Shown here in pieces: positions 5,838-27,443 of a stretch of 64,000 nucleotides of DNA. The stretch lies in contig JAIUPD010000006.1 in the NCBI GenBank assembly GCA_020161615.1, positions 1 to 64,000 of the forward strand, read 5' to 3'. The stretch's first letter is position 1. Every line of letters starts with the position of its first letter. The notes beneath the pieces are model-generated. The model made no database searches and had not been told where the DNA came from. It worked only from the letters and a program-made list of their open reading frames with translations. Source of the DNA: Pseudomonadota bacterium. GTDB taxonomy: Bacteria > Pseudomonadota > Alphaproteobacteria > Rhodobacterales > Rhodobacteraceae. The translations under genes were made by a program, and so were the position numbers.

Positions 5838-6332
5838 TCAGAGGGGGGCGAGGCGGTGGAAGCGCGATTGCTCATAGAGCAGGGCCGCGCCTTCGGCCTC
5901 GCTGATATCGGTGATCTGGCCGATGAAGATCTGATGCGTCCCGGCCTTCAGGCTTTCGGCCACCTCGCAGGAAAAGGCGACCCGGGCATCGGCCAGAACC
6001 GGCACCCCCTGCGCATCGGGCCGCCAGTCGCCGAGCGCGAATTTCTCCTCGCCGGTGGCGCCGCCAACGCCGGCGAAGCGCATCGCCATATCGCCCGAGG
6101 GATCGGGCAGCAGGTTCACGGCGAAGCGCCCGGTCTCCAGGATGCCCTGGCAGGTGCCGGTCGCCCGGTTGACGCAGACCAGCAGGCTGGGCGGGTCGGC
6201 CGTCACCGAACAGACCGCCGTCGCGGTGATGCCGCGCCTTCCCTGCGGGGTGAGCGTGGTGATGATCGTCACCGCGCCCGGAAACCGCGCCATGGCGGAC
6301 CGGAATTGACCGGGATCGACGGACACGCCCAT
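5838..6332 (-). CDS. Flavin reductase (DIM6/NTAB, HpaC/StyB-like)
   Basis: 164 aa, the usual size for the small NAD(P)H:flavin oxidoreductase partner of two-component monooxygenases. The family pattern is clear: FRSAMARFPGAVTIITT near the N-terminus, GITATAVCSVTADPPSLLVCVN in the middle, and GRFAVNLL and HQIFIGQI segments. It would reduce free FAD (or FMN) with NADH for transfer to the StyA-like oxygenase encoded immediately upstream (15-bp gap), acting in the cytosol. It is the last gene of the SDR-monooxygenase-reductase operon and is followed by a strong terminator. In indole (iif/ind) and styrene (sty) operons the same partner occupies this place. Confidence 0.88.
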   Translation of the reverse strand: MGVSVDPGQFRSAMARFPGAVTIITTLTPQGRRGITATAVCSVTADPPSLLVCVNRATGTCQGILETGRFAVNLLPDPSGDMAMRFAGVGGATGEEKFALGDWRPDAQGVPVLADARVAFSCEVAESLKAGTHQIFIGQITDISEAEGAALLYEQSRFHRLAPL

Positions 6333-6347
6333 GCTCCCCTCCCTCGC

Positions 6348-7580
6348 TCAGGCGGCTTTCAGTTCGGCCAGATAGGCCGAGGCGGCCTGCGGATCGGCGA
6401 ACCACGGGAAGAAGTCGCGCGGATCGTCGAAGCCGTTGGCGATGCGATGCGCCAGACGCGGCTCGATGCCGGCGGTGCCCATGATCTCCAGGATGAAGGG
6501 CGGCGGCGGGGCCAGCATCATGTTGGTCCAGGTGACCACCCATTGCGCGTAATCCCAATAGGCGTCGAAGGTGCCCTGCATCCAGGCCGCGTCGAAGGGC
6601 CGGTCGCCATGATCGAGGATGCGCTTCAGATAGACCCGCGCCGCCTTGGCCGCGTTGTTCGAGCCCTGCCCGGTGATCGGATCGTTGAGGCAGACGGCAT
6701 CGCCCAGCCCCAGAACCCGCGCGCCTGAGGGCAGTGTGCCGATGGGCTTGCGCACCGTCGGCGGGAAACGCCCGGCGAGAATGCCGTTGTCATCGGTCAG
6801 GCTCAGGTTGCGGCAGCGCTCGGCCTCCCACGGCAGGAAGGTGTTGAGGATGCCCAGCGAGGTCTCCAGATGCTGCTCAGGACTCTTCACATCGGCCCAG
6901 CAATCCATCGGGCCACCGGGCACGCCCTCGAACACCATGATGTCGCAGGGGCCGGTGGTGGTCAGCGCCGGGAAGACGAAATATTCGCCGACCCCGGGGA
7001 TCAGGTTGAAGTTCACCGCCGAATACTCGGGGCGCGGGGTCATGCCCGTCACATAGGTCAGCGCCAGCGCCCGCTGCGGCCGGTCGTAGGGGGATTTGGT
7101 CGCGTCCCGCTCGAACATCTTGCCGACATCGCCCTTGCCGGAGGCCACGATGACCAGATCGTCCTCTCGCGCGTAAAGCTCCATATCGGCAATGCCCGCT
7201 TCCTTAAGCACCAGCCGGCCGCCCAGCTTTTCGAACTCGGCCATCCAGCGCGGGATCTTGACCCGTTGATCCACCGAATAGGCGTTGCGGTCGAGGCGCG
7301 AGGCCCAGTCGACCGCCTTGGCGCCCGGCACTTCGGGATGCGGCACGGCAAAGCTGATGCCCTCGACCGGCGGGCAATGATCGGTCCAGAAGTCGATGCC
7401 GAGCGCGCGCTCGGCCTCGATGGCATCGCCGAACATGCATTGGCTGGACAGGACCTTGCCCGTCGCCATGTCCTGCGCGTCGCGGTTCTGGACGACGCGG
7501 ACCTGATAGCCCTGTTGCAGAAGGCCGATGGCCAGCTGGAAGCCCGACTGGCCGCCGCCGACAATGGTGATCTTTCTCAT
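6348..7580 (-). CDS. StyA/IndA-type FAD-dependent monooxygenase (candidate indole oxygenase)
   Basis: 410 aa, group E flavoprotein monooxygenase. The N-terminal GGGQSG dinucleotide fold (residues 8-13) is followed by GKVLSSQCMF, a DLVIVASGKGDVGKMFERD stretch and PQRALALTY, the typical StyA layout. A later GLGDAVCLNDPITGQGSNNA binds the FAD phosphate. The family epoxidises styrene or oxidises indole at C2-C3 using FADH2 from a separate reductase. Here the reductase is directly downstream and an SDR directly upstream, with a divergent AraC gene. This is the gene set of indole-oxidising iif/ind operons, so indole or an indole derivative is the preferred substrate guess. The start ATG at 7580 matches the conserved N-terminus. 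Confidence 0.82.
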   Translation of the reverse strand: MRKITIVGGGQSGFQLAIGLLQQGYQVRVVQNRDAQDMATGKVLSSQCMFGDAIEAERALGIDFWTDHCPPVEGISFAVPHPEVPGAKAVDWASRLDRNAYSVDQRVKIPRWMAEFEKLGGRLVLKEAGIADMELYAREDDLVIVASGKGDVGKMFERDATKSPYDRPQRALALTYVTGMTPRPEYSAVNFNLIPGVGEYFVFPALTTTGPCDIMVFEGVPGGPMDCWADVKSPEQHLETSLGILNTFLPWEAERCRNLSLTDDNGILAGRFPPTVRKPIGTLPSGARVLGLGDAVCLNDPITGQGSNNAAKAARVYLKRILDHGDRPFDAAWMQGTFDAYWDYAQWVVTWTNMMLAPPPPFILEIMGTAGIEPRLAHRIANGFDDPRDFFPWFADPQAASAYLAELKAA

Positions 7581-7603
7581 GGTCAACTCCCTGTTGTTCT
7601 TTG

Positions 7604-8380
7604 TTATTCCATCAGTTTCGGGATCGCCGGCACCGCCTGCTCGGGGCCCATGGCGGTATAGCCGCCGTCGACCCGGATATCGGTGCCGGTGATGAAGCTC
7701 GCCTCGTCCGAGCAGAGGAAGAGCACGGTGCTCGCCACCTCCTCGGGGTTGCCGGTGCGGCCCAGCAGGTGGAAGGGCGCGGCCACGGCATCGGTCTTGG
7801 CGCGGTCGCCGCCGGTCAGCTGGTCCATGATGTTGGACCAGGTCCAGCCAGGGCTGACGGCATTGACGCGGATCCCCTCGGGCGCCAGATCCATCGCCTG
7901 GCTGCGGGTCAGTTGCAGGATCGCCGCCTTGCTGACCGGGTAGAGCCAGCGCCCGGTCTGCGCCACCCGCGACGAGATCGAGCCAAAGTTGACGATCGCC
8001 CCCTTGGTCGCGGCCAGATCCTTGCGCGCGGCCTGCATCAGCATGACCGAGCCCACGAGGTTCACGTCCAGCGCCTCCAGCCATTCCGCGCGGGGCGAAT
8101 CGGCGCCGTTGTCCAGGTACGAGCAGGCGACGTTCACCAGAAAGTCGATCCGGCCATAGGCGTCGCGCGTCGCCTGAACCAGCGCCGCGATATCGTCGTC
8201 GCTGCGCAGGTCGCAGCGGGTGAAGCCCACGCCCTCGGCCACCATCGCGTGACCGCCCTCGGCGTCGATATCCGCCACCATGACCCGCACGCCCGCCTCG
8301 CGGAACGCGGCCACGACGGCCCGCCCGATCTTGGTGGCGCCGCCCGGAACGATGGCGACCTTGCCGTCCAATCCCCGCAT
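7604..8380 (-). CDS. Short-chain dehydrogenase/reductase (SDR family)
   Basis: 258 aa classical SDR. The NAD(P)-binding glycine motif is slightly atypical (PGGATKIG, with Pro in place of Thr/Ser), and the usual NNAG is NVAC. The catalytic Ser lies in NFGSISS and YPVSK provides Tyr and Lys. The C-terminal ITGTDIRVDGGYTA is standard. It is the first gene of the operon that continues with the StyA-like oxygenase (23-bp gap) and flavin reductase. In iif-type indole operons an SDR oxidises the 2,3-dihydroxyindoline product to 3-hydroxyindolin-2-one; a similar role is inferred here. An aldehyde or alcohol substrate is possible. Confidence 0.85.
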   Translation of the reverse strand: MRGLDGKVAIVPGGATKIGRAVVAAFREAGVRVMVADIDAEGGHAMVAEGVGFTRCDLRSDDDIAALVQATRDAYGRIDFLVNVACSYLDNGADSPRAEWLEALDVNLVGSVMLMQAARKDLAATKGAIVNFGSISSRVAQTGRWLYPVSKAAILQLTRSQAMDLAPEGIRVNAVSPGWTWSNIMDQLTGGDRAKTDAVAAPFHLLGRTGNPEEVASTVLFLCSDEASFITGTDIRVDGGYTAMGPEQAVPAIPKLME

Positions 8381-8557: not shown

Positions 8558-9565
8558 ATGGCGAATCCCGCTGCGGTCCCGCTGGCCGCCCACGCGCTGT
8601 TTCATACCCACGACCTTGACGAGGCGCGCGAGCGTGTCGCCTCGGTTTTCTGTCCGCACCGGCTGGACCGGATCGGCAAGGGCGAGTTCGACGCCTGCCA
8701 CCACCATCTGCGTGGCGAGCGGCTGTCGCTGAATTACATCGCCTATGGCACCAAGACCCTGATCGCGCCCGGCGAGCTGCGGGATTTCTATCTGGTGCAG
8801 GTGCCGCTGACCGGCGCCGCGGCAATCCGCAACGGGACGGATACCTATGTCTCGGACAGCGCGCGGGCGGCGGTGCTGAACCCGCATCACGCAACGACGA
8901 TGATCTGGGACGGCGATTGCCGACAGGTCTTGTTGCAGATCGACCGGCAGGCGCTGAATGCCCATCTGGCCGGGCTGATCGCCGGACGGCCCGACCGGCC
9001 GCTGACCTTCACCGGCTCCTTCGATCTGACCAGCCAGCGCGGCGCCGCGCTGAAGGCGCTGCTGCTCTATCTGGTGAGCGAGGCCGACGCCGGGCGCCCG
9101 GTCCTGCGCCCCGGCAGTCTGTTGGGGCGGCAGATCGAAAGCACGCTGATGACCGGCCTGCTGGAAGCGCATCGCCACAATTTCACCGACGCGCTGAGCC
9201 ACAGCCGCGGCCCCGCCCCCCTGCCCCGGCTGGTCCGGCAGGCCGAGGATTACATGCTAGCCCATGTCGACCGGCCCATCGCGCTGGAGGATGTGGCGCA
9301 GGCGGTGGGGGTCAGCGCGCGGACGCTGCAACTGGCCTTCCGGCGGTTCAAGGATACGACGCCCATGGCCTTCCTGCGCGACGCCCGCCTCGACCGGGCG
9401 GATGCCGATCTGCGCGCGGCCAGGCCCGGCGCCAGCGTGACCGAGATTGCCACGCGCTGGGGCTTCGGTCATTTCGGCCGTTTCGCCGGGATCTACCGCG
9501 CCCGTTTTGGCTGCACGCCGCGGCAGACCTTGCAGGACGCGCTGGCCGACAAATTCCTCAACTAG
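8558..9565 (+). CDS. AraC-family regulator with AraC_binding_2-type sensor domain
   Basis: 335 aa from the ATG at 8558, which has GGAGG about 6 bases upstream. The N-terminal 200 residues look like the sensor domain found in XylS/FeaR-like regulators of aromatic catabolism (LIAPGELRDFYLVQVPLTGAA region). The C-terminal 100 residues are a double helix-turn-helix (IALEDVAQAVGVSARTLQLA, then ATRWGFGHFGRFAGIYRARFG with P-R-Q end). It is divergent from the SDR-monooxygenase-reductase operon, with a 177-bp shared promoter region. An AraC gene in the same position controls iif/ind indole operons, so substrate-dependent activation of the operon is the likely role. Confidence 0.85.
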   Translation: MANPAAVPLAAHALFHTHDLDEARERVASVFCPHRLDRIGKGEFDACHHHLRGERLSLNYIAYGTKTLIAPGELRDFYLVQVPLTGAAAIRNGTDTYVSDSARAAVLNPHHATTMIWDGDCRQVLLQIDRQALNAHLAGLIAGRPDRPLTFTGSFDLTSQRGAALKALLLYLVSEADAGRPVLRPGSLLGRQIESTLMTGLLEAHRHNFTDALSHSRGPAPLPRLVRQAEDYMLAHVDRPIALEDVAQAVGVSARTLQLAFRRFKDTTPMAFLRDARLDRADADLRAARPGASVTEIATRWGFGHFGRFAGIYRARFGCTPRQTLQDALADKFLN

Positions 9566-10370
9566 CGCGCTGGAACCAGGGCTTTTTCGGGTCGGGCTCG
9601 GGGATCGCCTCCAGAAGCTCGCGCGTATAGGCGGCCTGCGGCGCGGCAAAGAGCGTCTCGCAGGCCGCGTCTTCGACGATCTCGCCCTGATGAAGCACCA
9701 GCACCCGGTCGCAAAGCCGGCGAATGACGCTCAGGTCGTGGCTGATGAAGGCGAGCGTCAGGTTCATCTCGCGCACCAGATCCCGCAGGATCGACAGCAC
9801 CTGTGCCTGACTGGACACATCGAGGCCCGAGACGATCTCATCCGCCAGGATGAAATCCGGCCTCAGCGCGATGGCGCGGGCGATGCCGACCCGCTGGCGC
9901 TGTCCGCCGGACAGCTCGTGCGGATAGCGGGCGCCGAAGCTGCGCGGCAGGCCCACACGTTCGAGCGCGTCCAGCGCCTCGGCCCGCGGATTGGCGCGGC
10001 CGTGCAGCGAGAGGGGGGCGGCGATGATCCGCGCCACGGACATGCGCGGGTTCAGCGACGACATGGGATCCTGAAAGATCATCTGGAACCTGTGCCTGAG
10101 CGGGCGCAGCGCGGGCTCGGACAGATGGGTGAGGTCGGTGCCGTCGAAGGTCACGCGGCCCGAGCTCGGCTCCAGCAGCCGCACCAGCGCCCGCCCCAGC
10201 GTGGACTTGCCCGAGCCCGAGCCGCCGACGATGCCCAGCACCTGCCCCCGGGGGATGGCAAAACTCATGCCCTTCAGAATCTCGATGCGGGGGGCCGCAC
10301 CAAACAGCGGCTTGCGGGTCATGTCGGGCAGCGAGAGGCGCAGAGCCTCGACGCGGTAGAGATCGCTCAT
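9558..10370 (-). CDS. Dipeptide/oligopeptide-type ABC transporter ATP-binding protein (DppF-like)
   Basis: About 270 aa from the ATG at 10370, which forms an ATGA overlap with the previous stop; an in-frame ATG 9 bases earlier is possible. Walker A GGSGSGKST, Q-loop FQDP, signature LSGGQRQR and Walker B (FILADEIVSGLD) with the switch His (ISHD) are all visible. The SSLNPRMSV stretch is typical of DppF/OppF. It pairs with the DppD-like ATPase upstream to energise the importer. The last 8 bp overlap the 3' end of the convergent AraC gene. Confidence 0.9.
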   Translation of the reverse strand: MSDLYRVEALRLSLPDMTRKPLFGAAPRIEILKGMSFAIPRGQVLGIVGGSGSGKSTLGRALVRLLEPSSGRVTFDGTDLTHLSEPALRPLRHRFQMIFQDPMSSLNPRMSVARIIAAPLSLHGRANPRAEALDALERVGLPRSFGARYPHELSGGQRQRVGIARAIALRPDFILADEIVSGLDVSSQAQVLSILRDLVREMNLTLAFISHDLSVIRRLCDRVLVLHQGEIVEDAACETLFAAPQAAYTRELLEAIPEPDPKKPWFQRAS

Positions 10371-11236
10371 GCGTGCCACCTCTGGTCGGCTTCGGCGACG
10401 GCGCGGCGGGCCTCGGCGATCACCGCCTCGGGCACCGGGGTCAGGTCGGCGGTGGGGTCGGTGTGCCGGGGGGTCGCGGCCAGCAGGGCGCGGGAATAGG
10501 CGTGCCGGGGCGCCTCGAAGAAGGCGCCGACCTCGGCCTCTTCCATCACCAGGCCGCCATAGAGGACGGTCAGGCGCTGGCAGATCTTCGACACCACGCC
10601 CAGGTCATGCGTGACGAACAGCAGCGCCGTGCCATGACGCGCCTGCATCTCGAAAATCAGCTTCAGGATCTGCTTCTGCACCGTCACGTCCAGCGCCGTG
10701 GTCGGCTCATCCGCGACGATCAGCCGGGGTTCGGCGGCGAAGGCCGAAGCGATCAGCACACGCTGGCGCATGCCGCCGGACAATTCATGCGGATAGGCGC
10801 GCAGCACCCGGTCCGGCTGCGGGATGTGCACGTCGTGCAGGATCTCCTCGGCCCTTGCCCGGGCGCGGGCCTTGTCCCAGCCCAAGATGTCGACCAGCCG
10901 GTCCGAGATCTGCGGCCCGATCCGCCGCGCGGGATTGAGCGCGGTCAGCGGGTCCTGCGGGATCAGCGCGGCCTTCTGACCGATCAGGTGCCGCCGCTGC
11001 CGGGGCGGCAGGGTCAGCAGGTCCACGCCATCAAGCTCGATGGAGCCGCCGACGATCCGGGCCGACCGAGGCAATATCCCCAGCACCGCCTTGCCGATCA
11101 TCGACTTGCCGGCGCCGGATTCGCCCACCAGCCCCATCACTTCGGTCGCGCCGACGTCCAGCGACACGCCCCTCAGCAGCCGGTGGTTCGTCCCCCTCAG
11201 GATGACCGACAGGTCGCGGATCTTCAGGAAACTCAT
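10367..11236 (-). CDS. Dipeptide/oligopeptide-type ABC transporter ATP-binding protein (DppD-like)
   Basis: 289 aa. Walker A is GESGAGKSM, the Q-loop [11 protein letters not shown], the signature LSGGMRQR, Walker [13 protein letters not shown], and the switch His lies in FVTHDLGVV. The C-terminal peptide-transporter extension is present but lacks an obvious cysteine cluster. It is coupled to the DppF-like gene by ATGA overlap and follows the DppC-like permease by 10 bp. It forms the cytoplasmic ATPase heterodimer with the DppF-like subunit. Confidence 0.9.
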
Positions 11237-11246
11237 CCCCGCCCCC

Positions 11247-12098
11247 TCAATTCAGCACCGGGTCGAAGCGGTCCTTCAACCCCTCGCCCAGCTGCGAAAA
11301 GGACAGCACCGTCAGGAACAGCGCGATCAGCGGGAAGACCAGCACCCACCAGGCCTGATGGATCGACAGCCGCCCCTCGGCAATCATGCCGCCCCAGGTG
11401 GGATCGTCGGTCGAGACCGAGAGGTTCACGAAGGACAGGATCGCCTCGACGATCACGGCGATGCCCATTTCCAGCGTGAGCAGGACGGTGATGGTGGACA
11501 GGACGTTGGGCAGGATCTCAGTCAGCAGGGTCGACATGCGGCCGCGTCCGGCGATCTGCGCCGAGGCCACGTAATCCATCGCCCCCTGCGCCATGGCCTC
11601 GGCCCGCACGACACGGGCAAAGCGCGTCCAGTCGATGACGATGATCGCCACCACGACCGAGGTCAGGCCGGTTCCCATCACGGCGATCAGCAGGATCGCG
11701 AACAGGACCGGCGGAAAGGCCATCCAGATATCGACGAGGCGCGAGATCACCATGTCGGCCCAACCCCGGTAATAGCCCGCGATCAGGCCCAGCGTCGCGC
11801 CAATGAGCGCGGTTGCGGTGCCGGCAATCAGCGCGACGATCAGCGCCACGCGGCCGCCGTACAGGATCCGGCTGAGAACATCGCGGCCGAGGCTGTCGGT
11901 GCCCAGCCAATAGCCGGGCTCGGCCCCGTCCATCCAGAAGGGCGGCAGGCGGCTGGTGAACAGATCCTGCATCAGCGGGTCCTGCGGCGCGATCCAGGGC
12001 GCGAAGACCGCGCCGATCACCAGCGCCGTCAGCCAGCCGGCCGAAAGCCAGAGCCTGAGCCCGGCCGTGCGTTTCACAAGCGAGCGGCCGTCAAGCAT
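11247..12098 (-). CDS. Dipeptide-type ABC transporter permease (DppC-like)
   Basis: 283 aa, about six transmembrane segments, with the longer N-terminal cytoplasmic lead and first periplasmic loop (PLMQDLFTSRLPPF...YWLGTDSLGRDVLSR) typical of DppC/OppC. The EAA-like coupling loop (ASAQIAGRGRMSTLLTEILPN) faces the ATPases. Its start overlaps the DppB-like gene by 8 bp. It forms the inner-membrane channel with DppB. Confidence 0.9.
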   Translation of the reverse strand: MLDGRSLVKRTAGLRLWLSAGWLTALVIGAVFAPWIAPQDPLMQDLFTSRLPPFWMDGAEPGYWLGTDSLGRDVLSRILYGGRVALIVALIAGTATALIGATLGLIAGYYRGWADMVISRLVDIWMAFPPVLFAILLIAVMGTGLTSVVVAIIVIDWTRFARVVRAEAMAQGAMDYVASAQIAGRGRMSTLLTEILPNVLSTITVLLTLEMGIAVIVEAILSFVNLSVSTDDPTWGGMIAEGRLSIHQAWWVLVFPLIALFLTVLSFSQLGEGLKDRFDPVLN

Positions 12099-13098: not shown

Positions 13099-13112
13099 CA
13101 GGACCTCGGAAA

Positions 13113-13140
13113 GCCGGGGGACGGTTCGACCCGTCCCCCG
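13113..13140 (-). terminator. Intercistronic hairpin after the binding-protein gene
   Basis: Perfect 11-bp arms (CCGGGGGACGG / CCGTCCCCCGG) with a 6-nt loop lie in the 48-bp gap between the binding-protein and DppB-like genes. There is no U-tract. Such stem-loops usually stabilise the upstream mRNA or attenuate transcription so that binding protein is made in excess over the membrane subunits. Confidence 0.6.
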
Positions 13141-13146
13141 GATGGA

Positions 13147-14670: not shown

Positions 14671-14727
14671 GTCCAATTTCCCTGTTGTTCGGTGGTTCGT
14701 TATGCGCCCCGTTGATCGGGGTCTGGT

Positions 14728-16290: not shown

Positions 16291-16317
16291 GACCAAGCCC
16301 CCACGAGTCGAAATGAT

Positions 16318-16327: not shown

Positions 16328-16394
16328 GCATATAAACCTGTCTAGTCTGTTTTTGTGAAGGGCCGACACAGGCCCCGTGACAGGGAGAATCGCC

Positions 16395-18752: not shown

Positions 18753-19219
18753 GTGATCAGGGCAAAAGACGGACGAGGCTGGGCGAAACGGGGCTGGAGG
18801 GTTTCGCGCCCTACCTCATGAACCGCATCATGGGACGCTACAACGCCGAGATCCGCTCGGCCCTGGGCAAGAACGGCCTCTCGACCCCCAAGATGCGGGC
18901 GCTCGCTGTCCTTTCGGTGGTGCAGGCGCCCCTGATCCGCGAGCTTGCCGTCAATGCCGTGACCGAACAATCGACCCTCAGCCGGGCATTGGACCAGCTG
19001 GAGGCCGATGGCCTCGTGCGGCGTGAATCCGACGTTAACGACAGCCGGGCCACCCGCATCTATATCACCGCTGCCGGGCGCGAGGTCTTCGAGGGCCTCT
19101 GGCCGCACATGACCGACGCGCAGGAAGTCATGTTCCGCGGCATTTCCGACGACGAACGGCAGGCCTTCCTGCTCACCTTGCAGAAGATGCTGCGCAACAT
19201 CCGCAAACACGAATTCTGA
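18749..19219 (+). CDS. MarR family transcriptional regulator
   Basis: 156 aa, the normal MarR length. The winged helix is seen in LIRELAVNAVTEQSTLSRAL, then DQLEADGLVRRESDVNDSRATRIYITAAGRE, with the DxR wing. ATGA overlap with the upstream oxidoreductase gene and a 7-bp gap to the IorA gene place it inside the operon, so it probably autoregulates. MarR proteins are the known ligand-responsive repressors of bacterial auxin catabolism loci, which fits the gene content. The ATTTGCAAAT palindrome upstream of the operon is a candidate site. Confidence 0.9.
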   Translation: MSDQGKRRTRLGETGLEGFAPYLMNRIMGRYNAEIRSALGKNGLSTPKMRALAVLSVVQAPLIRELAVNAVTEQSTLSRALDQLEADGLVRRESDVNDSRATRIYITAAGREVFEGLWPHMTDAQEVMFRGISDDERQAFLLTLQKMLRNIRKHEF

Positions 19220-19226: not shown

Positions 19227-21389
19227 ATGGCCGAACGTTCATTCAAGGCCGAGGTCGCCGACCTGCGCAAGGGCGCGGGCGAGACCTTCACCGGCGAGGG
19301 GATCCTGGCGATCACCAAGGCGCTTCTGGAAAACGGCGTCGGCTATGTCGGCGGCTATCAGGGGGCGCCGATCAGCCATTTGATGGACGTTCTGGCCGAT
19401 GCCGAGGATCTGCTGAAGGAACTCGACGTCCGGTTCGAGGCCAACGCCTCGGAAGCCGCCGCCGCGGCGATGCTGGCGGCCTCGGTGCATTACCCGATCC
19501 GGGGCGCCGTGACCTTCAAGGGGCCGGTGGGCGTCAACGTGGCCTCGGACGCGCTGGCCAACCTCGCGTCTTCGGGCGTGACTGGCGGGGCGCTGATCAT
19601 CGTCGGCGAGGATTACGGCGAGGGCTCCAGCATCATGCAGGAGCGCAGCCATGCCTTCGCCATGAAGTCGCAATTCTGGCTGCTGGACCCGCGGCCCAAC
19701 CTGCCCTCGATCGTCAAGGCGGTCGGCGACGGGTTCGAGCTGTCGGAGGCCTCCAACACCCCGGTCATGCTGATGGTCCGCATCCGCGCCTGCCACGTCA
19801 CCGGCCAGTTCCAGACCCGCGACAACCAGCGCCCGCCGCTCAGCGTGCGCGAGGCTCTGGCCAAGCCGCAGCGCAATGTCTCGCGCATCGTGCTGCCACC
19901 GATGAGCTATGCGCAGGAGCATGACAAGATCAACAACCGCTGGCCAGCCGCCGAGCGCTACATCCGCGAGCACCGGCTGAACGAGCATTTCGGGCCGGAA
20001 ACGGCGCCGGTCGGCATCGTCTGCCAGGGCGGGATGTACAACGGCGTGATCCGGGCGCTGCAGCGGCTGGGTCTGGCGGATCTCTATGGCAACACGCAGG
20101 TGCCGATCTATTGCCTGAATGTGACCTATCCCCTGCTGCCCGACGAATTTGCCGGGTTTTGCGCCGGGAAGGAGGCCGTGCTGGTGGTCGAGGAAGGCCA
20201 ACCCGAGTTCCTGGAACAGGCTTTCGCCACGATGATGCTGCGCTCGGGGTCTTCGACCCGGCTGCACGGGAAGGACATCTTCCCGATGGTGGGCGAATAC
20301 ACCGGACAAGTGATGAAGGACTCGCTGGAAACCTTCCTGCGCCAACACGCCCCGACCCTGCTGCCGGCGCAGGTTCTGGCGCCGAATACCGAGGCCCCGG
20401 CCATCCCCGACCTGTCGAAGACCGTGCCGATCCGCCCGCCGGGGTTCTGCACCGGCTGCCCGGAACGCCCGATCTTCGCCGCGATGAAGCTGGTGCAGAA
20501 GGAACTGGGCGAGCATCAGATCAGCGCCGATATCGGTTGCCACCTGTTCGCCTCGCTGCCGCCCTTCAACATCGGCGGGGCGACGATGGGCTACGGCCTT
20601 GGCCCGGCGTCCAACGCGGCCTTTGACGGCGGCAAGGCCGGGGGCGCCGAGAAACGCTCGATCGCGGTGATCGGCGACGGCGGGTTCTGGCACAATGGCC
20701 TGTCCTCGTCGTTCGGGAACATGGCGTTCAACAAGTCGGACGGCGTGGCAGTCATCGTCGACAATTATTACTCGGCCGCGACCGGCGGGCAGGACGTCAT
20801 GTCCTCCCGCGCCCAGAATCCGACCAAGGCCACCAACAACCCGATCTCGAAGGCGCTGCGCGGCATCGGCATCGACTGGGTGAAGCAGGTCGACCGGACC
20901 TATGACGTGGCGGGCATGCGCGACATCTTGCGCGAGGCGCTGACCACCGATACGCCCGGGCCGAAGGTCATCGTCGCCTCGTCCGAATGCATGCTGAACA
21001 AGCAGCGGCGCGAGAAACCCCTGCGCAATGCCGCGATCCGCGAGGGGCGCCGGGTCGAGGCGCCGCGCTTCGGCGTGGACGAAGCCGTCTGCACCGGCGA
21101 TCACGCCTGCATCCGGCTGTCGGGCTGCCCCTCGCTGTCCCTGAAGAAACTGGACGATCCCTTGCGGGACGATCCGGTGGCCGCCATCGACACGTCCTGC
21201 GTCGGCTGCGGCAATTGCGGCGAGGTAGCCGAGGCCGCGGTCCTCTGCCCTTCGTTCTACGAGGCGCGGGTGATCCACAACCCCTCGGCCCTGGAACGCC
21301 GGCTGAACGGCTGGCGGCAGGGTCTGATCGGCTGGCTGGCGAAGCGCCGCCAGTCCCGCCGCCTGAGCTTCGAGGAGAGCGCGGCATGA
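19227..21389 (+). CDS. iorA: Indolepyruvate ferredoxin oxidoreductase alpha-like subunit (TPP and 4Fe-4S)
   Basis: 720 aa. The N-terminal pyrimidine-binding domain carries the GYQGAPISHLMD motif. The TPP-binding GDGGFWHNG begins near residue 484 and ends at a VDNYY stretch. A conserved CTGCPERP lies near 407. The C-terminal ferredoxin-like part holds cysteines in CTGDHACIRLSGCPSLS (about 620) and CVGCGNCGEVAEAAVLCP (about 657). The family oxidatively decarboxylates aryl-2-oxoacids to acyl-CoA. Indolepyruvate is the namesake, but arylglyoxylates such as isatinate are conceivable given the isatin-hydrolase-like gene upstream. ATGA overlap joins it to the beta gene. Confidence 0.88.
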   Translation: MAERSFKAEVADLRKGAGETFTGEGILAITKALLENGVGYVGGYQGAPISHLMDVLADAEDLLKELDVRFEANASEAAAAAMLAASVHYPIRGAVTFKGPVGVNVASDALANLASSGVTGGALIIVGEDYGEGSSIMQERSHAFAMKSQFWLLDPRPNLPSIVKAVGDGFELSEASNTPVMLMVRIRACHVTGQFQTRDNQRPPLSVREALAKPQRNVSRIVLPPMSYAQEHDKINNRWPAAERYIREHRLNEHFGPETAPVGIVCQGGMYNGVIRALQRLGLADLYGNTQVPIYCLNVTYPLLPDEFAGFCAGKEAVLVVEEGQPEFLEQAFATMMLRSGSSTRLHGKDIFPMVGEYTGQVMKDSLETFLRQHAPTLLPAQVLAPNTEAPAIPDLSKTVPIRPPGFCTGCPERPIFAAMKLVQKELGEHQISADIGCHLFASLPPFNIGGATMGYGLGPASNAAFDGGKAGGAEKRSIAVIGDGGFWHNGLSSSFGNMAFNKSDGVAVIVDNYYSAATGGQDVMSSRAQNPTKATNNPISKALRGIGIDWVKQVDRTYDVAGMRDILREALTTDTPGPKVIVASSECMLNKQRREKPLRNAAIREGRRVEAPRFGVDEAVCTGDHACIRLSGCPSLSLKKLDDPLRDDPVAAIDTSCVGCGNCGEVAEAAVLCPSFYEARVIHNPSALERRLNGWRQGLIGWLAKRRQSRRLSFEESAA

Positions 21390-22909
21390 GCGTCACTTTC
21401 CCCCCGCCCGCCGATGCGGGCAATGTGATCAAGCTGGCGATCCTGGCCGTGGGCGGTCAGGGCGGCGGCGTGCTGGGCGGCTGGATCGAGACGCTGGCGC
21501 GCTCGCAGGGCTATGCCGTGCAGGCGACCTCGGTCGCAGGCGTGGCGCAACGCACGGGCGCGACGATCTATTATCTGGAGATGGCACCCGAGGGCCCGGT
21601 CGCGCCGGTCTTTTCGCTCGCCCCGGCGGCGGGCGATGTGGATGTGATGATCGCGGCCGAGATGATGGAGGCCGGGCGGGCGATCCTGCGCGGCTTCGTC
21701 ACGCCCGACCGGACGGTGCTGATCGCCTCGACCCACCGCGCACTGGCGGTCAGCGAGAAGATGGTGCCGGGTGATGGCATCGCCAATGCCGACGAGGTTC
21801 GGGCCGCGGCCGAGGTCGCCGCGCGCGGGCTGGTGCTGGCCGATTTCGAGGCGGCGGCGCTGAAGGCGGGCTCGGTCATCTCGGCCAGCCTGTTCGGCGC
21901 GCTGGCGGGATCGGGCGCCCTGCCCTTCCCGGTCGAGGCTTTCGAAGCGGCGATCCGCGCCGGTGGCAAAGGGGTCGAGCCCTCGCTCCGCGCCTTCGCG
22001 GCGGGGCGCGAGGCGGCGTTGGACGGCAATGTCCCCGCTCCGGTCAAAGGCCTGCCGAAGACTCCGGGCGCCGCGCGCGGGCCGGAGAAGCTGACCCGGG
22101 GCTGGCAGGCGCTGGCCGACCGCGTTTCCACCCTGCCCGCTGCCGTCCGGCCGATGGCGCTGGCCGGTCTGCGCAAGGTGGTGGATTTTCAGGACCTTGC
22201 CTATGGCGAGGCCTATCTGGACCGTCTGGAAACCGCCGCCCGCGCGGACCACGGAATCGACAATGCCTTCACCATTGCGGCCGCGAAATACCTCGCCAAT
22301 GCCATGGCTTATGACGACGTGATCCGCGTGGCCGATGCCAAGACCAGGCCCGAGCGGCTGGACCGGATCCGGGCCGAGATGGGCGGAGCCGAGGTCATGC
22401 AGCTGACCGAATTCACCCATCCGAGGGCCGAGGAAGTGGTCTCGCTGCTGCCGCGCGCCCTGGGTCAGGCGATCATGGACCGGCCGCGCCTGCTGGGCTT
22501 CATCGACCGGCGGGTGAACAAGGGGCGCAGGCTCAGGACCGACCGGCTGCTGCCCTTCCTGCAACTGCATATGCTCGCGTCGATGCGTGGCTGGCGGCCG
22601 CGCAGCCTGCGCCATGCCGAAGAGATGGCGCATCTGGACCGCTGGTTCACCACCGCGCTGGACCGCGCGCCGCGCGATCTGGCGCTGGCCACGGCAACGC
22701 TGCAGGCCCGGCGGCTGGTGAAGGGCTATTCCGACACCCATGCGCGCGGACTGGGCAAGTTCGACCGGGTGATGGAGGGAATCGCGCTGGTCGAGGGGCG
22801 GGACGACGCCGCCGACTGGGCCCGCCGCCTGACTACCGCGGCACTGCAGGACGAAGAGGGCGTGGCGCTGGACGGTGTGCTGAAGACGATCCGCAGCTTC
22901 CTCGACTGA
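21386..22909 (+). CDS. iorB: Indolepyruvate oxidoreductase beta-like subunit with long C-terminal extension
   Basis: 507 aa, more than twice the length of archaeal IorB (about 200). Residues 15-200 form the gamma/beta-type domain (LAILAVGGQGGGVLGGWIE, TSVAGVAQRTGATIYYLE). The remaining 300 residues are a helical extension, as in the DUF6537-type proteobacterial forms, with RLVKGYSDTHARGLGKFDRV close to the end. The extension is common in aerobic bacteria, but its role is unclear; electron transfer to a non-ferredoxin acceptor has been speculated. It is translationally coupled to IorA and ends 6 bp before the convergent IclR gene. Confidence 0.86.
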   Translation: MSVTFPPPADAGNVIKLAILAVGGQGGGVLGGWIETLARSQGYAVQATSVAGVAQRTGATIYYLEMAPEGPVAPVFSLAPAAGDVDVMIAAEMMEAGRAILRGFVTPDRTVLIASTHRALAVSEKMVPGDGIANADEVRAAAEVAARGLVLADFEAAALKAGSVISASLFGALAGSGALPFPVEAFEAAIRAGGKGVEPSLRAFAAGREAALDGNVPAPVKGLPKTPGAARGPEKLTRGWQALADRVSTLPAAVRPMALAGLRKVVDFQDLAYGEAYLDRLETAARADHGIDNAFTIAAAKYLANAMAYDDVIRVADAKTRPERLDRIRAEMGGAEVMQLTEFTHPRAEEVVSLLPRALGQAIMDRPRLLGFIDRRVNKGRRLRTDRLLPFLQLHMLASMRGWRPRSLRHAEEMAHLDRWFTTALDRAPRDLALATATLQARRLVKGYSDTHARGLGKFDRVMEGIALVEGRDDAADWARRLTTAALQDEEGVALDGVLKTIRSFLD

Positions 22910-22915: not shown

Positions 22916-23677
22916 TCAGCGCGGGGCGCCGATCCGGCCGATGGCCAGGGCGCAGCGTCGCAACACGTCCAACACCCGCTCCAGCCGCCCTGACTCGTCG
23001 AAAGCGTTGACCGAGGCGGTGGTCGCCAGCACAAAGGGCACCTGTCCCAGCCCGCCCAGAGGCACGGCGACCCCGGCCGCGCCCAGCTCGAATTCGTCGC
23101 GGGCAAAGGCATAGCCCTGCTCGCGCGCCGTCTCGACCGCGGCGCGCAGGGGGGCGGCATCCAGTTCCGTCGCCTCGGTATAGGGCTGCGGCGAGCGGGC
23201 GGCGAGGGCCTGATCCAGCACCTCGGCGCTTGAGCGCGCCAGCAGCATCCGCCCCACCGCCGTGTGTAGCAAGGGCAGCGCGCTTCCGATACCGAAGCCC
23301 AGCGTCACCCGGGCCGAAGCCGGCGCAGCGCGGTCGACATAGACCGCGTGAAGCCGGTCGCGGGTGGCGAGCGCGACTTCCATGTCCAACTCTTCGGCCG
23401 CGTGGCGCAGGACGGGCTGCACCACCCGCCCGACCTGCAAGCCGCGCAGAAACCCGCCCGCCAGCGTCAGCACCCGGGGCGCGAGGCGCAGGCCGCCCTC
23501 GCCCTCTTCCAGATAGCCGCAGCGCACCAGCGTCAGGCAGAGCCGCCGCACCACCGCCCGGTCGAGGCCCGAGCGGCGGGTGATCTCGGGCAGGGTCAGT
23601 TGGGGCGTGCCGGTCTCGAAACAGGCCAGCACCTCCAGCCCCTTGGCCAGGGTCAGGGCGAAATCGCGATCGCTCAT
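22916..23677 (-). CDS. IclR family transcriptional regulator
   Basis: 253 aa from the ATG at 23677. The N-terminal winged helix (LAKGLEVLACFETGTPQLTL, PEITRRSGLDRAVVRRLCLT) and C-terminal effector domain (GIGSALPLLHTAVGRMLLA, EQGYAFARDEFELGAAGVAVPL) are standard. The PcaR/PobR-like effector domain suits aromatic ligands. It is divergent from the Rieske oxygenase operon. An excellent 15-bp palindrome lies between the two, so control of that operon and itself is likely. Confidence 0.9.
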   Translation of the reverse strand: MSDRDFALTLAKGLEVLACFETGTPQLTLPEITRRSGLDRAVVRRLCLTLVRCGYLEEGEGGLRLAPRVLTLAGGFLRGLQVGRVVQPVLRHAAEELDMEVALATRDRLHAVYVDRAAPASARVTLGFGIGSALPLLHTAVGRMLLARSSAEVLDQALAARSPQPYTEATELDAAPLRAAVETAREQGYAFARDEFELGAAGVAVPLGGLGQVPFVLATTASVNAFDESGRLERVLDVLRRCALAIGRIGAPR

Positions 23678-23763: not shown

Positions 23764-24165
23764 ATGTCCGCCGAAACGCCACCTGCCGAGGGCTGGGTGC
23801 AGATCGCCACGACGGCCGATCTGGACCGCCCCCGCCCGCTGATCCCGGTGACGCTGGCCGGCCGCCGGCTGGTCCTTTTTCGCGACGACGAGGGGCAGCT
23901 GGGCCTGATCGGCCGTCATTGCCCGCATCGCGGCGCCGACCTGTGTTATGGTCGGCTCGAAGACAACGGCCTGCGCTGCCCGTTCCACGGCTGGCATTTC
24001 GACCGGACGGGTCAATGCGTCGAGCAACCGGCCGAGCCCGAAGGCTCGCGCATGCACGAGCAGATCCGCATCCCGATGGTGCCGGTGCGGGAAAAGGATG
24101 GCGCGATCTGGGCACGGGTCGGCGTGGAACTGGAACAGGCAGCCGCAGCGGGGACAGACGCATGA
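23764..24165 (+). CDS. Stand-alone Rieske [2Fe-2S] protein of a split ring-hydroxylating oxygenase
   Basis: 133 aa. The cluster ligands are Cys53-x-His55 (CPHRG) and Cys72-x2-His75 (CPFHGWH), spaced 17 apart. The CPFHGWHFDRTGQC and REKDGAIWAR stretches resemble the N-terminal Rieske domain of oxygenase alpha subunits more than BphF-type ferredoxins. The gene for a catalytic subunit lacking these ligands follows with an ATGA overlap. The simplest reading is that this protein supplies the Rieske centre in trans. No reductase gene is seen nearby, so electron input is unknown. Confidence 0.85.
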   Translation: MSAETPPAEGWVQIATTADLDRPRPLIPVTLAGRRLVLFRDDEGQLGLIGRHCPHRGADLCYGRLEDNGLRCPFHGWHFDRTGQCVEQPAEPEGSRMHEQIRIPMVPVREKDGAIWARVGVELEQAAAAGTDA

Positions 24166-25382
24166 TCAGCCAGCAGCTCAACGACCGCATCACCCGCATC
24201 GCCCCCGGCACCCCGGCGGGCGCCGTGCTGCGGCAATATTGGCAACCCGCCGCTCTGGTGGATGAACTCGCCCATGGGCCGCTGGTGCCGGTCAACCTGC
24301 TGGGCGAACGGCTGGTCCTGCGGCAGGGCGCGCAGGGGCTGGAGCTGGCGACCCGCATCGCCTCCCCGGATGAGGCACCGACGTATTACCCGGCTTCCGA
24401 CGCCATCCAGGTCGACGCCGCGGGGCCGGTCTATCCGACCGAGACCCGCGCGGGTCTGGTCTTCGCCTATCTCGGCGAAGGCGCCCGGCCGCCCTTCCCC
24501 GCCTTCGACTGCTTCCGCGCGCCCGATACCCATGTCTTCGCCTTCAAGGGGCTCTGGGAATGCAACTGGCTGCAGGCGCTGGAGATCGGCATCGACCCGG
24601 CCCATGCCTCGTTCCTGCACCGTTTTCTGGAGGATGAGGACCCCGCCGACAGCTATGGCAAGCAGTTCCGCGACAAGGCGGGGGCGACCGACATTCCGAT
24701 GACCAAGCTCTTGCGCGACTATCCCCGCCCGGAAATCCGGGTGGATGAGACCGATTACGGCCTCAAGATCACTGCGCTGCGCCACATGGAGAACGGCCAT
24801 ACCCATGTCCGCGTCACCAACCAGATCTTCCCCGAGGCGATCTGCATCCCGATGTCGCGCGAAATGACCATCACCCAGTGGCATGTCCCGGTGGATGACC
24901 AGACCTGCTATTGGGTTACCGTCTTCACCAGTTTCGACAAGCCGGTGAACAAGGAACTGATGCGCGCGCAGCGGCTGAAGGAGCATCGGCTGCCCGATTA
25001 CGCGCCGCTGAAGAACCGCCGCAACGATTACCATTACGACCCGGCCGAACAGGCGGCGCTGACCTATACCGGCATGGGGCTGGACATCAACGTCCACGAC
25101 CAATGGGCGGTCGAGGGGATGGGCGCCATTCAGGACCGCACGCAGGAGCATCTGGGCCGCTCGGACGTGGCGATCATCCGCTACCGGCGGATGCTGCGGC
25201 GGATGATGGATGCGCTGGAACAGGGCGACCGCACCGCGCTGCCGATGCATGGTGACGGCGCGGCGCGGATCGTCGGACCGCTGTCGAACGACGCGATTGC
25301 CGAGACCGCCGACTGGCAGGCGGTGAGCCGCGCGGCCGATCTGGCGCGGCGGGCGGCCTGCCCCTGGGATGCAACGGTGTGA
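24162..25382 (+). CDS. Rieske-type oxygenase catalytic subunit lacking Rieske ligands
   Basis: 406 aa. The mononuclear iron site is intact: Glu141-x3-Asp145-x2-His148-x4-His153 in ECNWLQALEIGIDPAHASFLH. The N-terminal part keeps the opening of one-component oxygenases (LNDRITRIAPGTPAG, LRQYWQPAAL) and the GLVFAYLG end of the Rieske fold. Where C-x-H and C-x2-H should be (residues about 55-95) there is no cysteine or histidine pair. The upstream 133-aa Rieske protein presumably replaces the lost cluster. The family hydroxylates or demethylates aromatics. In MarR-regulated auxin loci a two-protein Rieske system begins indole-3-acetate oxidation, which this pair resembles in context. Confidence 0.85.
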   Translation: MISQQLNDRITRIAPGTPAGAVLRQYWQPAALVDELAHGPLVPVNLLGERLVLRQGAQGLELATRIASPDEAPTYYPASDAIQVDAAGPVYPTETRAGLVFAYLGEGARPPFPAFDCFRAPDTHVFAFKGLWECNWLQALEIGIDPAHASFLHRFLEDEDPADSYGKQFRDKAGATDIPMTKLLRDYPRPEIRVDETDYGLKITALRHMENGHTHVRVTNQIFPEAICIPMSREMTITQWHVPVDDQTCYWVTVFTSFDKPVNKELMRAQRLKEHRLPDYAPLKNRRNDYHYDPAEQAALTYTGMGLDINVHDQWAVEGMGAIQDRTQEHLGRSDVAIIRYRRMLRRMMDALEQGDRTALPMHGDGAARIVGPLSNDAIAETADWQAVSRAADLARRAACPWDATV

Positions 25383-25384: not shown

Positions 25385-26833
25385 ATGGACGGGGCGATCA
25401 AGGGGGCGCTCTTCGAGCGCGGCTTGTTGACCGAGGATCAGGCACGCGCCGGGGCGGAACTCGCCGCCCGGGTGGCGGCCGAGGGGTTCGAGACGGTGCG
25501 CCTGCTCTTCGCCGACCAACACGGCATTCTGCGCGGCAAGGCGATTGCGGCACGGACGCTGGGCTCGGCGCTGGCCTCGGGTCTGTCAGTGCCCTCGACG
25601 CTGATCCTGAAGGACACGGCGCATCGCACGGTGTTCGACGTCTGGAAGGACGGGCTGACGCTCGACGGCGTGTCGCTGGCGGGCGCCGGGGACCTGTTGC
25701 TCGTGCCCGATGTCGCCACCTTCACCCCCCTGCCCTGGTCGCCGCATTCGGCGATCATCCTGTGCGACCTTGCCTATCGGTCGGGACAAAGGGTGTCAGT
25801 CTCGCCGCGCGGCGTGTTGCGCCGGGCCACCGAGGCGCTGGCCCGCACCGGCCATGACGCGGTGATGGGGCTGGAGGTCGAGTTTCAGGTCTTCGCCATC
25901 GAGGACGACGGCCTTTCCCACGACCAAGCCACCATGCCCCCCGCCGCCCTTACCACCCGCAACACGACGCAGGGCTGGGCCTTCCTCACCGAAACCCGCT
26001 ATGGCGCGGTGGAGCCCCTGCTGGACGAGATCCGCCGCGCGGCCGAGGCGATGGGCCTCGCCCCCCGCTCGATGGAGATCGAGATGGGGCCGTCGCAGTT
26101 CGAATTCACTTTCGACGCCTCGGACCCGATGACTCAGGCCGACCGCTTCGTCCTGTTCCGCATGATGGTCAAGGACATCTGCCAGCGGCAGGGCCTGCAC
26201 GCCAGTTTCATGCCCAAGCCTCGGGTGGCAAATGCGGTGGCGAACGGCTGGCACATCCACCAGTCGCTGGTCTCGCGCCAGACCGGGCGCAACGTCTTCA
26301 CCCCCGCCGTCGATGGCGAACCGACCGCCGAGGCCGGGGCCTGGATCGCCGGGCTTCTGGATCATGCGCCGGCCACCTGCCTGCTGACCAACCCCACGGT
26401 CAACGGCTACAAGCGCTTCAGCGCCTTTCAACTGGCGCCGAACCGGGTGCAATGGGGCACCGACAATCGCGGCGCCATGCTGCGGACGCTGCTCTATGCG
26501 GGGGATCCGGCATCCCGGATCGAGAACCGCGTCGCCGATACCGCCGCCAACCCCTATTACGCGCTGGCTGGGCAGATCCTGTCCGGGCTGGACGGGCTGA
26601 ACCGGGGCGCGACGCCGCCGCCCCCCACCCTCACCCCCTATGCCGAGGATCAGGTGAGCCTGCCCGCGACGCTGGACGCAGCCATCCAGGCTTTCGAGGC
26701 CTCGCCACTCTATGCGCAGGCGCTGGGAGCGGATTTCGTCCGCTACCTGTCGCATCTGAAGCGGGCGGAATGGGGGCGGTATCTGGCGACGATCTCGGAA
26801 TGGGAACAGGCCGAGTATTTCACCCTGTTCTGA
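25385..26833 (+). CDS. Glutamine synthetase family protein (gamma-glutamyl ligase-like)
   Basis: 482 aa from the ATG at 25385; a GTG 6 bases earlier overlaps the previous stop. The glutamine synthetase fold is seen in LFADQHGILRGKAI, GLEVEFQVF (metal-binding Glu), SMEIEMGPSQFEFTF, NGWHIHQSL, the NPTVNGYKRF loop and ASRIENRVADTAANPYYALAG. It is closer to the catabolic ligases (PuuA, or TdnQ/AtdA1-like gamma-glutamylanilide synthases) than to housekeeping GlnA. Such enzymes attach glutamate to amines with ATP. In an operon with a Rieske oxygenase, an aromatic-amine or aryl-acid intermediate is a plausible acceptor; this is inferred. Confidence 0.82.
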   Translation: MDGAIKGALFERGLLTEDQARAGAELAARVAAEGFETVRLLFADQHGILRGKAIAARTLGSALASGLSVPSTLILKDTAHRTVFDVWKDGLTLDGVSLAGAGDLLLVPDVATFTPLPWSPHSAIILCDLAYRSGQRVSVSPRGVLRRATEALARTGHDAVMGLEVEFQVFAIEDDGLSHDQATMPPAALTTRNTTQGWAFLTETRYGAVEPLLDEIRRAAEAMGLAPRSMEIEMGPSQFEFTFDASDPMTQADRFVLFRMMVKDICQRQGLHASFMPKPRVANAVANGWHIHQSLVSRQTGRNVFTPAVDGEPTAEAGAWIAGLLDHAPATCLLTNPTVNGYKRFSAFQLAPNRVQWGTDNRGAMLRTLLYAGDPASRIENRVADTAANPYYALAGQILSGLDGLNRGATPPPPTLTPYAEDQVSLPATLDAAIQAFEASPLYAQALGADFVRYLSHLKRAEWGRYLATISEWEQAEYFTLF

Positions 26834-26840
26834 GGCACGC

Positions 26841-27443
26841 ATGGCCGATCACCCCGTCGCCGGGCATTTCTTCGAAGAGATCATCGACGGCTATTTCCCG
26901 CTGGGCGAGAGCCTGCGGCAGATGCTGGCGCGGCAGGATTTCGGCGCGGCGCTGGTGGTGATCACCCATGCGCCGGTGCTGCATTGGCCGGGCGATGACG
27001 GCCAGGGCCCAGTGCCGATGCGCCTGCAGACGGCGACGGCGGGTCTGATCCGCGCCTTTATCGCGCTGGCGGTGTTGAAGGGCAACGGGATGCGGCTGAG
27101 CGGGGTGGCGGACTGGCGCTGGCCGGGGGCGGATCACGGGTTGAGCGCCGGAACGCGGCTGGCGGAACCTGCCTTCCTGCGCGGTATCGGGCTGCGGCCC
27201 GGGGCCGAGGATGGCGGCGCCTTCGGTCTGGTTCGCCGGGACGACACCTCGGGCCTGGGCATCGCCGGGCCGGACGTGCCCGGCTGGGGCTTCACCCGCC
27301 CGGTTGACGGGATCCTCCGCGATATCGGGGCCATCGCCCGGCCGGACAGCCCCGGCGGCACGGGGCCGCGGCTGTCGGTCGATCTGTCGGACCCGGGCCA
27401 CGCCGCGGCATCGGCGGCGATGGCGCGCGATCTCGGCCTTTAA
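26841..27443 (+). CDS. Conserved-type hypothetical protein, last gene of the Rieske operon
   Basis: 200 aa, not recognised. The gene follows the glutamine-synthetase-like gene by 7 bp and ends 3 bp before the convergent Lrp gene. The protein is soluble with no signal peptide or membrane segment, and rich in Gly, Ala and Asp. The N-terminal 70 residues (HPVAGHFFEEIIDGYFPLGESLRQMLARQDFGAALVVI) look helical; the rest has many Gly/Pro turns (WRWPGADHG, VPGWGFTRPVDGIL). Operon position suggests a role with the oxygenase or ligase. No catalytic motif could be identified. Confidence 0.65.
   Translation: MADHPVAGHFFEEIIDGYFPLGESLRQMLARQDFGAALVVITHAPVLHWPGDDGQGPVPMRLQTATAGLIRAFIALAVLKGNGMRLSGVADWRWPGADHGLSAGTRLAEPAFLRGIGLRPGAEDGGAFGLVRRDDTSGLGIAGPDVPGWGFTRPVDGILRDIGAIARPDSPGGTGPRLSVDLSDPGHAAASAAMARDLGL

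Follow-up and report, generated by a model that had tools for sequence, protein, structure and literature searches.

A conserved indole and isatin gene island of the Rhodobacteraceae and its predicted catabolic route

How does a member of the Rhodobacteraceae that carries an indole oxygenase operon beside an isatin-hydrolase-like gene dispose of indole, and do the same genes also serve the auxin indole-3-acetate (IAA)? These questions are raised by an island at positions 5838-27443 of a 64,000-nucleotide stretch (the window), which is the start of the 310,270-base contig JAIUPD010000006.1 in a 4.87-Mb genome (GenBank assembly GCA_020161615.1). They touch on an older one, namely whether aerobic indole breakdown truly proceeds via isatin or only loses material to it as a dead end, which a 2018 review listed as open (PMC6221969). 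We find a real, well-conserved catabolic island composed of known parts in a new combination, and propose that it probably serves indole catabolism with isatin as an intermediate.

The island consists of three units: the ind operon with its AraC gene (5838-9565), an isatin unit (9558-22909) and an IclR/Rieske/glutamine synthetase (GS) operon (22916-27443). The listed genes are all open reading frames with the codon statistics of real genes and with Pfam or NCBIfam family matches, and by these measures every gene named in a first-pass annotation of the window is present where it had been placed. The closest relatives belong to Pararhodobacter, with a P. aggregans locus (L014) showing an identical gene order and protein identities of 92-99% for 18 of 19 matched genes; the other, p200, is truncated by the end of the stretch and shows 82%. 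Two samples were used for comparison: the best 80 of 474 relatives of the hydrolase found in one scan of genome contigs, taken with flanks of up to 10 kb, and a survey of 295 genomes of the family with E-value limits set per query. For the linkage to indole genes, L064 and L113, whose contigs are equally long, were treated as one count, as were L015 and L105 for the same reason, and the Fisher tests count genomes as independent, related ones included.

The ind operon lies on the reverse strand and encodes a flavin reductase (5838..6332; IifD/IndB-like; Pfam Flavin_Reduct, 139 bits), which follows the short-chain dehydrogenase (SDR) and indA genes as in L161, L162 and L165; the indole monooxygenase IndA of the StyA family (6348..7580; IifC-like; Smoa_sbd; phmmer 643 bits to 7z4x and 545 bits to 9lrq); and the SDR (7604..8380; IifB-like; adh_short_C2; PRK08265 subfamily 389 bits, above its cut-off). 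Divergent from these, on the forward strand, is an AraC-family regulator (8558..9565, alternative start 8501; AraC_binding_2, HTH_18). The genes that the first-pass annotation named for an iif/ind-type operon are present, and IndA/IifC, flavin reductase, SDR and AraC are common to the operons of Acinetobacter O153 and Cupriavidus SHE as well as to ipo/dho of the WHOP island. Unlike those systems, the window has an empty IifA position, SDR and AraC being immediate neighbors (the search for IifA did not extend beyond the island), and has CrtB, isatin hydrolase and IorAB close by. The sole cyclase-family gene of the island is the isatin-hydrolase-like one. The 2018 review states that isatin is handled by none of the iif genes and poses the involvement of isatin as a question (PMC6221969).

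The isatin unit is arranged around a divergent promoter. On its reverse-strand side are a five-gene Opp-type ATP-binding cassette importer (9558..14676; two ATPases, two permeases and an SBP_bac_5 binding protein by Pfam, with the genes matched in 54-62 of the 80 loci) and CrtA, a CrtI/CrtO-like flavin adenine dinucleotide (FAD) oxidoreductase (14728..16296; CrtO model 180 bits, below the cut-off). The forward strand encodes the B-type isatin hydrolase (16395..17186, alternative start 16377); CrtB, a second CrtI/CrtO-like FAD oxidoreductase by Pfam and NCBIfam and a predicted dioxindole dehydrogenase (17190..18752); a MarR regulator (18749..19219); an IorA-like 2-oxoacid:ferredoxin oxidoreductase alpha subunit with isatinate as its predicted substrate (19227..21389; TPP_enzyme_C; TIGR03336 273 bits); and an IorB-like beta subunit (21386..22909; POR and DUF6537 by Pfam; PRK08312 subfamily 636 bits, above the cut-off). 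The hydrolase is similar over its whole length to isatin hydrolase B of Labrenzia aggregata (4j0n; 467 bits over 261 residues) and contains the HSGTHFDAPHHW-type motif, which bears out the earlier description of an isatin-hydrolase-like cyclase and predicts that the enzyme converts isatin to isatinate. It stands in one gene order with CrtB, MarR and IorAB; the neighbors of the Labrenzia gene were not compared. Searches of PDB sequences returned only weak matches for CrtA and CrtB (phytoene dehydrogenase 4dgk and oxidoreductase 3ka7) and none at 1e-5 for IorA.

Strong matches to the unit recur across the 80 loci, namely the hydrolase in 80, IorA in 75, MarR in 74, CrtA, CrtB and IorB in 69 each and the binding protein in 62, with several of the absences being contig ends. 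In the family survey the hydrolase is matched in 59 genomes, IorA in 71 and CrtB in 34, and all 59 genomes with the hydrolase have an IorA match, versus 12 of the 236 others (Fisher 1.7e-50). The two genes lie within 12 kb on the same contig in 43 of 50 genomes whose hydrolase is at least 66% identical; this distance table excludes 26 of 83 isatin hydrolase rows (identity up to 56%) and 11 of 77 IorA rows (up to 55%). Since L059, L063, L066, L075, L091 and two Sulfitobacter plasmids keep the hydrolase and IorA, with or without MarR and IorB, in the absence of CrtA and CrtB, the hydrolase and IorAB look like the core of the system; L059 and L075 have hydrolase, IorA and IorB without any of the remaining genes of the unit. 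At L028:8747-11251, short importer pieces and a CrtB-like end are seen beside hydrolase, MarR, IorA and IorB, an apparent decay which suggests that the upper part was lost and the core retained. Tritonibacter mobilis and Sulfitobacter mediterraneus carry the isatin unit in the same order on plasmids, and a ParA/ParB pair is encoded at 36.7-39.1 kb of the window; that the island itself is on a plasmid is no more than plausible.

Further variation was noted around the core. In L063 and L066, genes resembling molybdenum hydroxylases of the xanthine oxidase family (named by eye from sequence starts only) precede the hydrolase and are divergent from hydrolase-MarR-IorA. Following IorB in L019, L022, L024 and others are a luciferase-like monooxygenase (labelled C1), a divergent winged-helix regulator (labelled C0) and often a flavin reductase, the former two being present in 29 and 30 of 89 clustered loci, respectively. 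A second isatin hydrolase, 67% identical, is fused in frame after a class V aminotransferase-like domain in genome G000 (contig C1:190218-192206, equivalent to L005:14218-16206), beside TRAP transporter genes.

The indole genes are strongly linked to this unit: IndA occurs in 11 of the 295 family genomes, and CrtB is present in 10 of these versus 24 of the 284 without IndA (Fisher p=1.1e-9). The same 10 genomes carry both CrtB and the hydrolase, and the exception is a genome that is 71% complete. In six IndA genomes the hydrolase is 7 to 10 kb from the ind operon on the same contig, and in a seventh (L106) IorB lies beside the operon near a contig end. Two arrangements are seen, with the operon either before the importer (window, L014, L015, L018, L031) or after IorB (L043, L064, L073, L107, L109, L111). 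The proposal that the indole genes and the isatin hydrolase core go together is thus upheld by adjacency in several genomes. Outside the order, Azospirillum thermophilum (L161) has AraC facing SDR, IndA, flavin reductase, a transporter, CrtB and the hydrolase in a single row; the flavoprotein of this row shows 60% identity with CrtB against 36% with CrtA, and the hydrolase shows 53% with that of the window. This row is the best evidence for CrtB acting between the SDR product and isatin hydrolase. In six other loci (L022, L038, L041, L052, L079, L084) an FMO-like monooxygenase (C7) occupies the place of IndA beside the same SDR, and it may represent a second type of indole oxygenase plugged into the system.

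In the route that we propose, IndA and the flavin reductase would oxidize indole and the SDR would yield 3-hydroxyindolin-2-one (dioxindole), in line with published work on iif/ind. In the stead of IifA, one of the CrtI-like flavoproteins, CrtB being the likeliest, would then dehydrogenate dioxindole to isatin, whose ring the hydrolase would open to give isatinate. IorAB, as a coenzyme A (CoA)-dependent 2-oxoacid:ferredoxin oxidoreductase, would decarboxylate isatinate to anthraniloyl-CoA with formation of reduced ferredoxin, and the product would pass into a pathway of the 2-aminobenzoyl-CoA monooxygenase/reductase type, whose genes lie elsewhere in this genome but follow IorB in some relatives. 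Another oxidized indole derivative may be brought in by the importer and CrtA. All substrates, like the reactions of CrtB and IorAB, are predicted from context and homology; the IorAB step is proposed because isatinate (2-aminophenylglyoxylate) belongs to the 2-oxo acids, on which IorAB-type enzymes act.

The predicted product of IorAB connects to several neighborhoods. 2-Aminobenzoyl-CoA monooxygenase/reductase has a fused flavin monooxygenase/old-yellow-enzyme architecture, and a like gene is present downstream of IorB in 11 of the 80 loci and in L111 and L113; the protein shows the fused architecture by Pfam and scores above the cut-off of a salicylyl-CoA 5-hydroxylase/oxidoreductase model. 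In L111 and L113 and their continuations it is followed by genes for enoyl-CoA hydratase, acyl-CoA dehydrogenase, RidA, a thioesterase-like protein and a ligase. In Alloyangia the ind operon, the fused protein and the isatin unit are within 37 kb, with no adenosine monophosphate (AMP) ligase annotated in that interval, the plasmid gene tables being incomplete. A. thermophilum also has a row of IorAB, iadC-like, iadD-like and iadE-like genes, an AMP ligase, an SDR, the fused protein and the rest; this ligase, the only AMP ligase of the row, is 55% identical to the iad-side ligase of Paracoccus saliphilus and 28% to the benzoate-type ligase of the present genome, whose own 2-aminobenzoyl-CoA-type cluster, with that ligase, is on contig C9. 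In the available text on Variovorax, strains overexpressing only iadC-K2 accumulate C8H7NO3 and C7H7NO (PMC12633357), which by our own assignment are the formulae of isatinate and 2-aminobenzaldehyde, and this would fit a missing isatinate step without proving it. We found no literature tying IorAB or ferredoxin oxidoreductases to isatin, isatinate or aminophenylglyoxylate, a weak absence as most subscription papers lay outside the search; 2-aminobenzoyl-CoA and isatin do occur together in some papers. We hold it evenly balanced whether IorAB of isatin loci, rather than being an indolepyruvate enzyme, forms anthraniloyl-CoA from isatinate with ferredoxin as acceptor and at no cost of ATP and, with a CrtI-family dioxindole dehydrogenase, constitutes an isatin-route lower pathway behind varied upper pathways, namely for indole through IndA or FMO-like enzymes, for auxin through iadCDE and perhaps for oxindole through a molybdenum hydroxylase.

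Several observations weigh against this route. Three of the 11 IndA genomes have ind operons without an isatin unit within 10 kb (L108, L110, L112; a fourth is a fragment), and the association of IndA with CrtB was computed with related genomes as independent. CrtB-like proteins of 44-56% identity also occur beside other catabolic genes in Mesorhizobium and Agrobacterium, and Sulfitobacter indolifex has its importer-CrtA-CrtB genes about 63 kb from its isatin hydrolase. At the lower end, the model matched by the fused monooxygenase/reductase bears the name salicylyl-CoA 5-hydroxylase, and a benzoate-CoA-ligase-like gene (361 bits, cut-off 375) is present in the genome's own cluster, in the continuations of L111 and L113 and in L054. 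The own-cluster ligase means that free anthranilate can enter too, and therefore anthraniloyl-CoA may derive from anthranilate. Moreover, iadC-K2 alone fully restored anthranilate in Variovorax according to a study whose text mentions neither iadA nor iadB (PMC12633357); because iadC-K2 by its name lacks iadA and iadB (IorAB), IorAB would be dispensable there.

These facts leave room for other readings of the same genes. The hydrolase could be IifA-like and take dioxindole straight to anthranilate, leaving CrtA, CrtB and IorAB for another substrate. This would agree with the Providencia gene GS-A, the counterpart of IifA by letter and order, which is annotated as a cyclase-family protein (PMC9871250), a further point against passage through isatin, and with Variovorax IadI, annotated as a kynurenine formamidase, whose step comes after a compound C8H7NO2, a formula that fits dioxindole (PMC12633357). 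Given that the closest relatives of the window protein are isatin hydrolases of measured activity, that IorA is present in all 59 family genomes with a hydrolase match and that CrtB stands between the ind genes and the hydrolase in Azospirillum, we consider this unlikely. We think it similarly improbable that the importer, CrtA, CrtB, hydrolase and IorAB serve an unknown imported compound, with the ind operon as a recent neighbor that only detoxifies indole: indA is indeed seen in only seven of the 80 stretches around the unit, and S. indolifex keeps importer-CrtA-CrtB apart from the hydrolase, but the ind operon adjoins the unit in two arrangements, the joint row recurs in another order, 10 of 11 IndA genomes have CrtB, and the six loci with the FMO-like gene place it beside the same SDR. 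The family name and annotation of IorAB in turn suggest an ordinary indolepyruvate:ferredoxin oxidoreductase of tryptophan breakdown, to which we give little credence, as IorA scores far below the cut-off of the IOR_alpha equivalog (273.2 versus 650.9 bits), isatin hydrolase is accompanied by IorA throughout (59 of 59 genomes) and family matches reveal no aminotransferase within the unit at 9558-22909. Passage of indole through isatin hence stays our favored explanation.

The first-pass annotation had gone further and let the island degrade auxin as well, through the Rieske/GS operon, with indole and IAA meeting at a shared isatin level. For the group at large the shared level is a good idea, since P. 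saliphilus and A. thermophilum have iad genes coupled to the isatin core or to IorAB: in P. saliphilus, the iad-like genes are accompanied by a TRAP transporter, MarR, the hydrolase, a second MarR (67% identical to that of the window) and IorAB, with its IorA 81% identical to the window protein. The iad loci of Variovorax, Bradyrhizobium and Ruegeria pomeroyi likewise share IorA/IorB (IadA/IadB), a cyclase-family hydrolase, MarR and isatin-level chemistry with the window; unlike them, the window has the importer and CrtA/CrtB but not iadC-D-E-F-G. In R. pomeroyi, an IAA degrader (PMC9613470), iadC-D-E-F-G-H-like genes are found with an SDR and with a cyclase that shares 46% identity with that of the window. 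With R. pomeroyi IadD as query, the best that the present genome offers is a distantly related Rieske protein (37% and 36% in two pieces), against 67% between the IadD proteins of R. pomeroyi and P. saliphilus, and on this ground the auxin branch is rejected for this genome. Annotation of the island shows neither the IadC-D-E Rieske system nor the AMP ligase IadF or the thiolase IadG, the genome-wide search having been made for IadD only. The Rieske enzyme of the window is of the LigXa type rather than IadD, and in genome G222, of the same genus, the Rieske operon and the isatin unit are on different contigs. The MarR protein is nearest to 3cjn (185 bits), far above 3cdh (50 bits), which in the accessible text binds IAA with a dissociation constant of 0.237 uM (PMC9613470); its second-best solved relative, 7kym (80 bits), does come from the auxin-MarR study. 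Taken together, we regard auxin degradation by this island as very improbable.

The regulation of the island appears to be divided. A palindromic site, GATATTTGCAAATGCATATAAA, the predicted MarR operator, is located in the crtA/hydrolase promoter region (16315..16336, forward strand), where it is the single match in the window at up to three mismatches (0 expected from shuffles); its 20-base form has one match in the whole 4.87-Mb genome at the same tolerance. The word ATATTTGC is present in 68 of 72 crtA-hydrolase intergenic regions, including that of the window, and a 23-base form occurs somewhere in 74 of the 80 stretches at up to five mismatches. We infer that MarR binds this site; from this one operator it would control both the CrtA-importer genes and hydrolase-CrtB-MarR-IorAB, and AraC would control the ind operon. 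The idea of separate regulators for the branches is in keeping with the confinement of the palindrome to this promoter within the window and with the ind operon having its own AraC. A looser copy of the operator (6 of 23 mismatches) was observed directly before iadC of R. pomeroyi (L167:1140-1162).

The remaining unit of the island is of interest in its own right. Behind an IclR regulator (22916..23677, reverse strand; IclR_C, HTH_IclR), the forward strand encodes a stand-alone Rieske [2Fe-2S] protein of 133 residues (23764..24165; Rieske 73 bits; motif CPHRGAD...CPFHGW), the catalytic subunit of a split Rieske oxygenase with its cluster loops deleted (24162..25382; LigXa_C; alignment with one-piece relatives), a GS-like ligase (25385..26833, alternative start 25379; Gln-synt_C; 323 bits to 8wwu) and, closing the operon, p200 (26841..27443; 200 residues), which has no Pfam match and is found only beside split-form Rieske oxygenases. 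The earlier description of a two-protein Rieske oxygenase stands as to the number of proteins and is refined to a stand-alone Rieske protein plus a LigXa_C-type catalytic protein without the cluster motif. The catalytic subunit is present in 37 of the 295 family genomes, 20 of which were represented by stretches, and a Rieske stretch directly precedes a separate catalytic gene in 13 loci (window; L007, L008; L014, L018, L031; L141-L147). p200 accompanies 11 of these 13 (the L018 and L031 stretches end before its place) versus none of 13 one-piece family loci (L148-L160); a single-sequence model of it was unusable (mean predicted local distance difference test score 39.1). The CxH...CxxH motif is missing from all 12 aligned catalytic proteins (L146 was placed by layout only), and a tree of 28 proteins places the split forms, 12 in number, in a single clade (100/100) that arises from within the one-piece forms, with L148 beside it (96/91). 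Given that the alignment shows the cluster loops to be gone from the catalytic protein and kept in the stand-alone protein, and given the nested clade, the Rieske domain was most simply copied out once from a one-piece ancestor, the copy left behind having lost its cluster. A frameshift or sequencing error as the cause of the split is ruled out by the own start, the retained N-terminus and the deleted loops of all 12 aligned split proteins. The closest parallel in form, the caffeine N7-demethylase NdmCDE, likewise has a non-heme-iron catalytic subunit without its own Rieske cluster; according to the accessible text, its Rieske domain is fused to a reductase and a glutathione S-transferase-like protein, NdmE, is required (PMC4408171), whereas in the window the Rieske protein is alone. 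By analogy to aniline, as described in the available text, the GS-like ligase suggests gamma-glutamylation of an amine before oxygenation (PMC4539516).

This operon is most likely a separate neighbor and not a step of the pathway, and its inclusion in the pathway by the first-pass annotation is probably mistaken: apart from its location in G222, whose contig (L015) has other genes after IorB, its catalytic subunit lies next to the unit in only three of the 80 hydrolase stretches (L014, L018, L031). A role as an anthranilate step is not supported, though it may exist: genomes with the catalytic subunit more often have isatin hydrolase (20 of 37 versus 39 of 258 genomes, p=6.7e-7), CrtB (12 of 37, p=2e-4) and, weakly, IndA (4 of 37, p=0.036), results that point in the opposite direction. 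Flanking the island are an ammonium transporter gene (4063-5436), which adjoins the ind operon, and, at 27447-29426, an AsnC-type regulator divergent from a class V aminotransferase/cysteine-desulfurase-like gene.

Bacteria, algae and plants exchange indole and auxin as signals, and matches to the hydrolase are frequent in the family, being present in 59 of 295 genomes. The split Rieske oxygenase is a clear example of an enzyme that has come apart into separate proteins. For the island itself, the analysis yields two testable enzyme assignments, those of CrtB and IorAB. No role is assigned to IorAB of auxin degraders in the accessible portions of the auxin-locus literature that we found, and, if the assignment proposed here is true, the 'indolepyruvate' markers of auxin-degrading loci are misnamed. 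Thus, the conserved gene orders that join an indole oxygenase, a flavoprotein, isatin hydrolase and IorAB provide named genes and simple assays with which the questions of isatin and of IorAB could be addressed.

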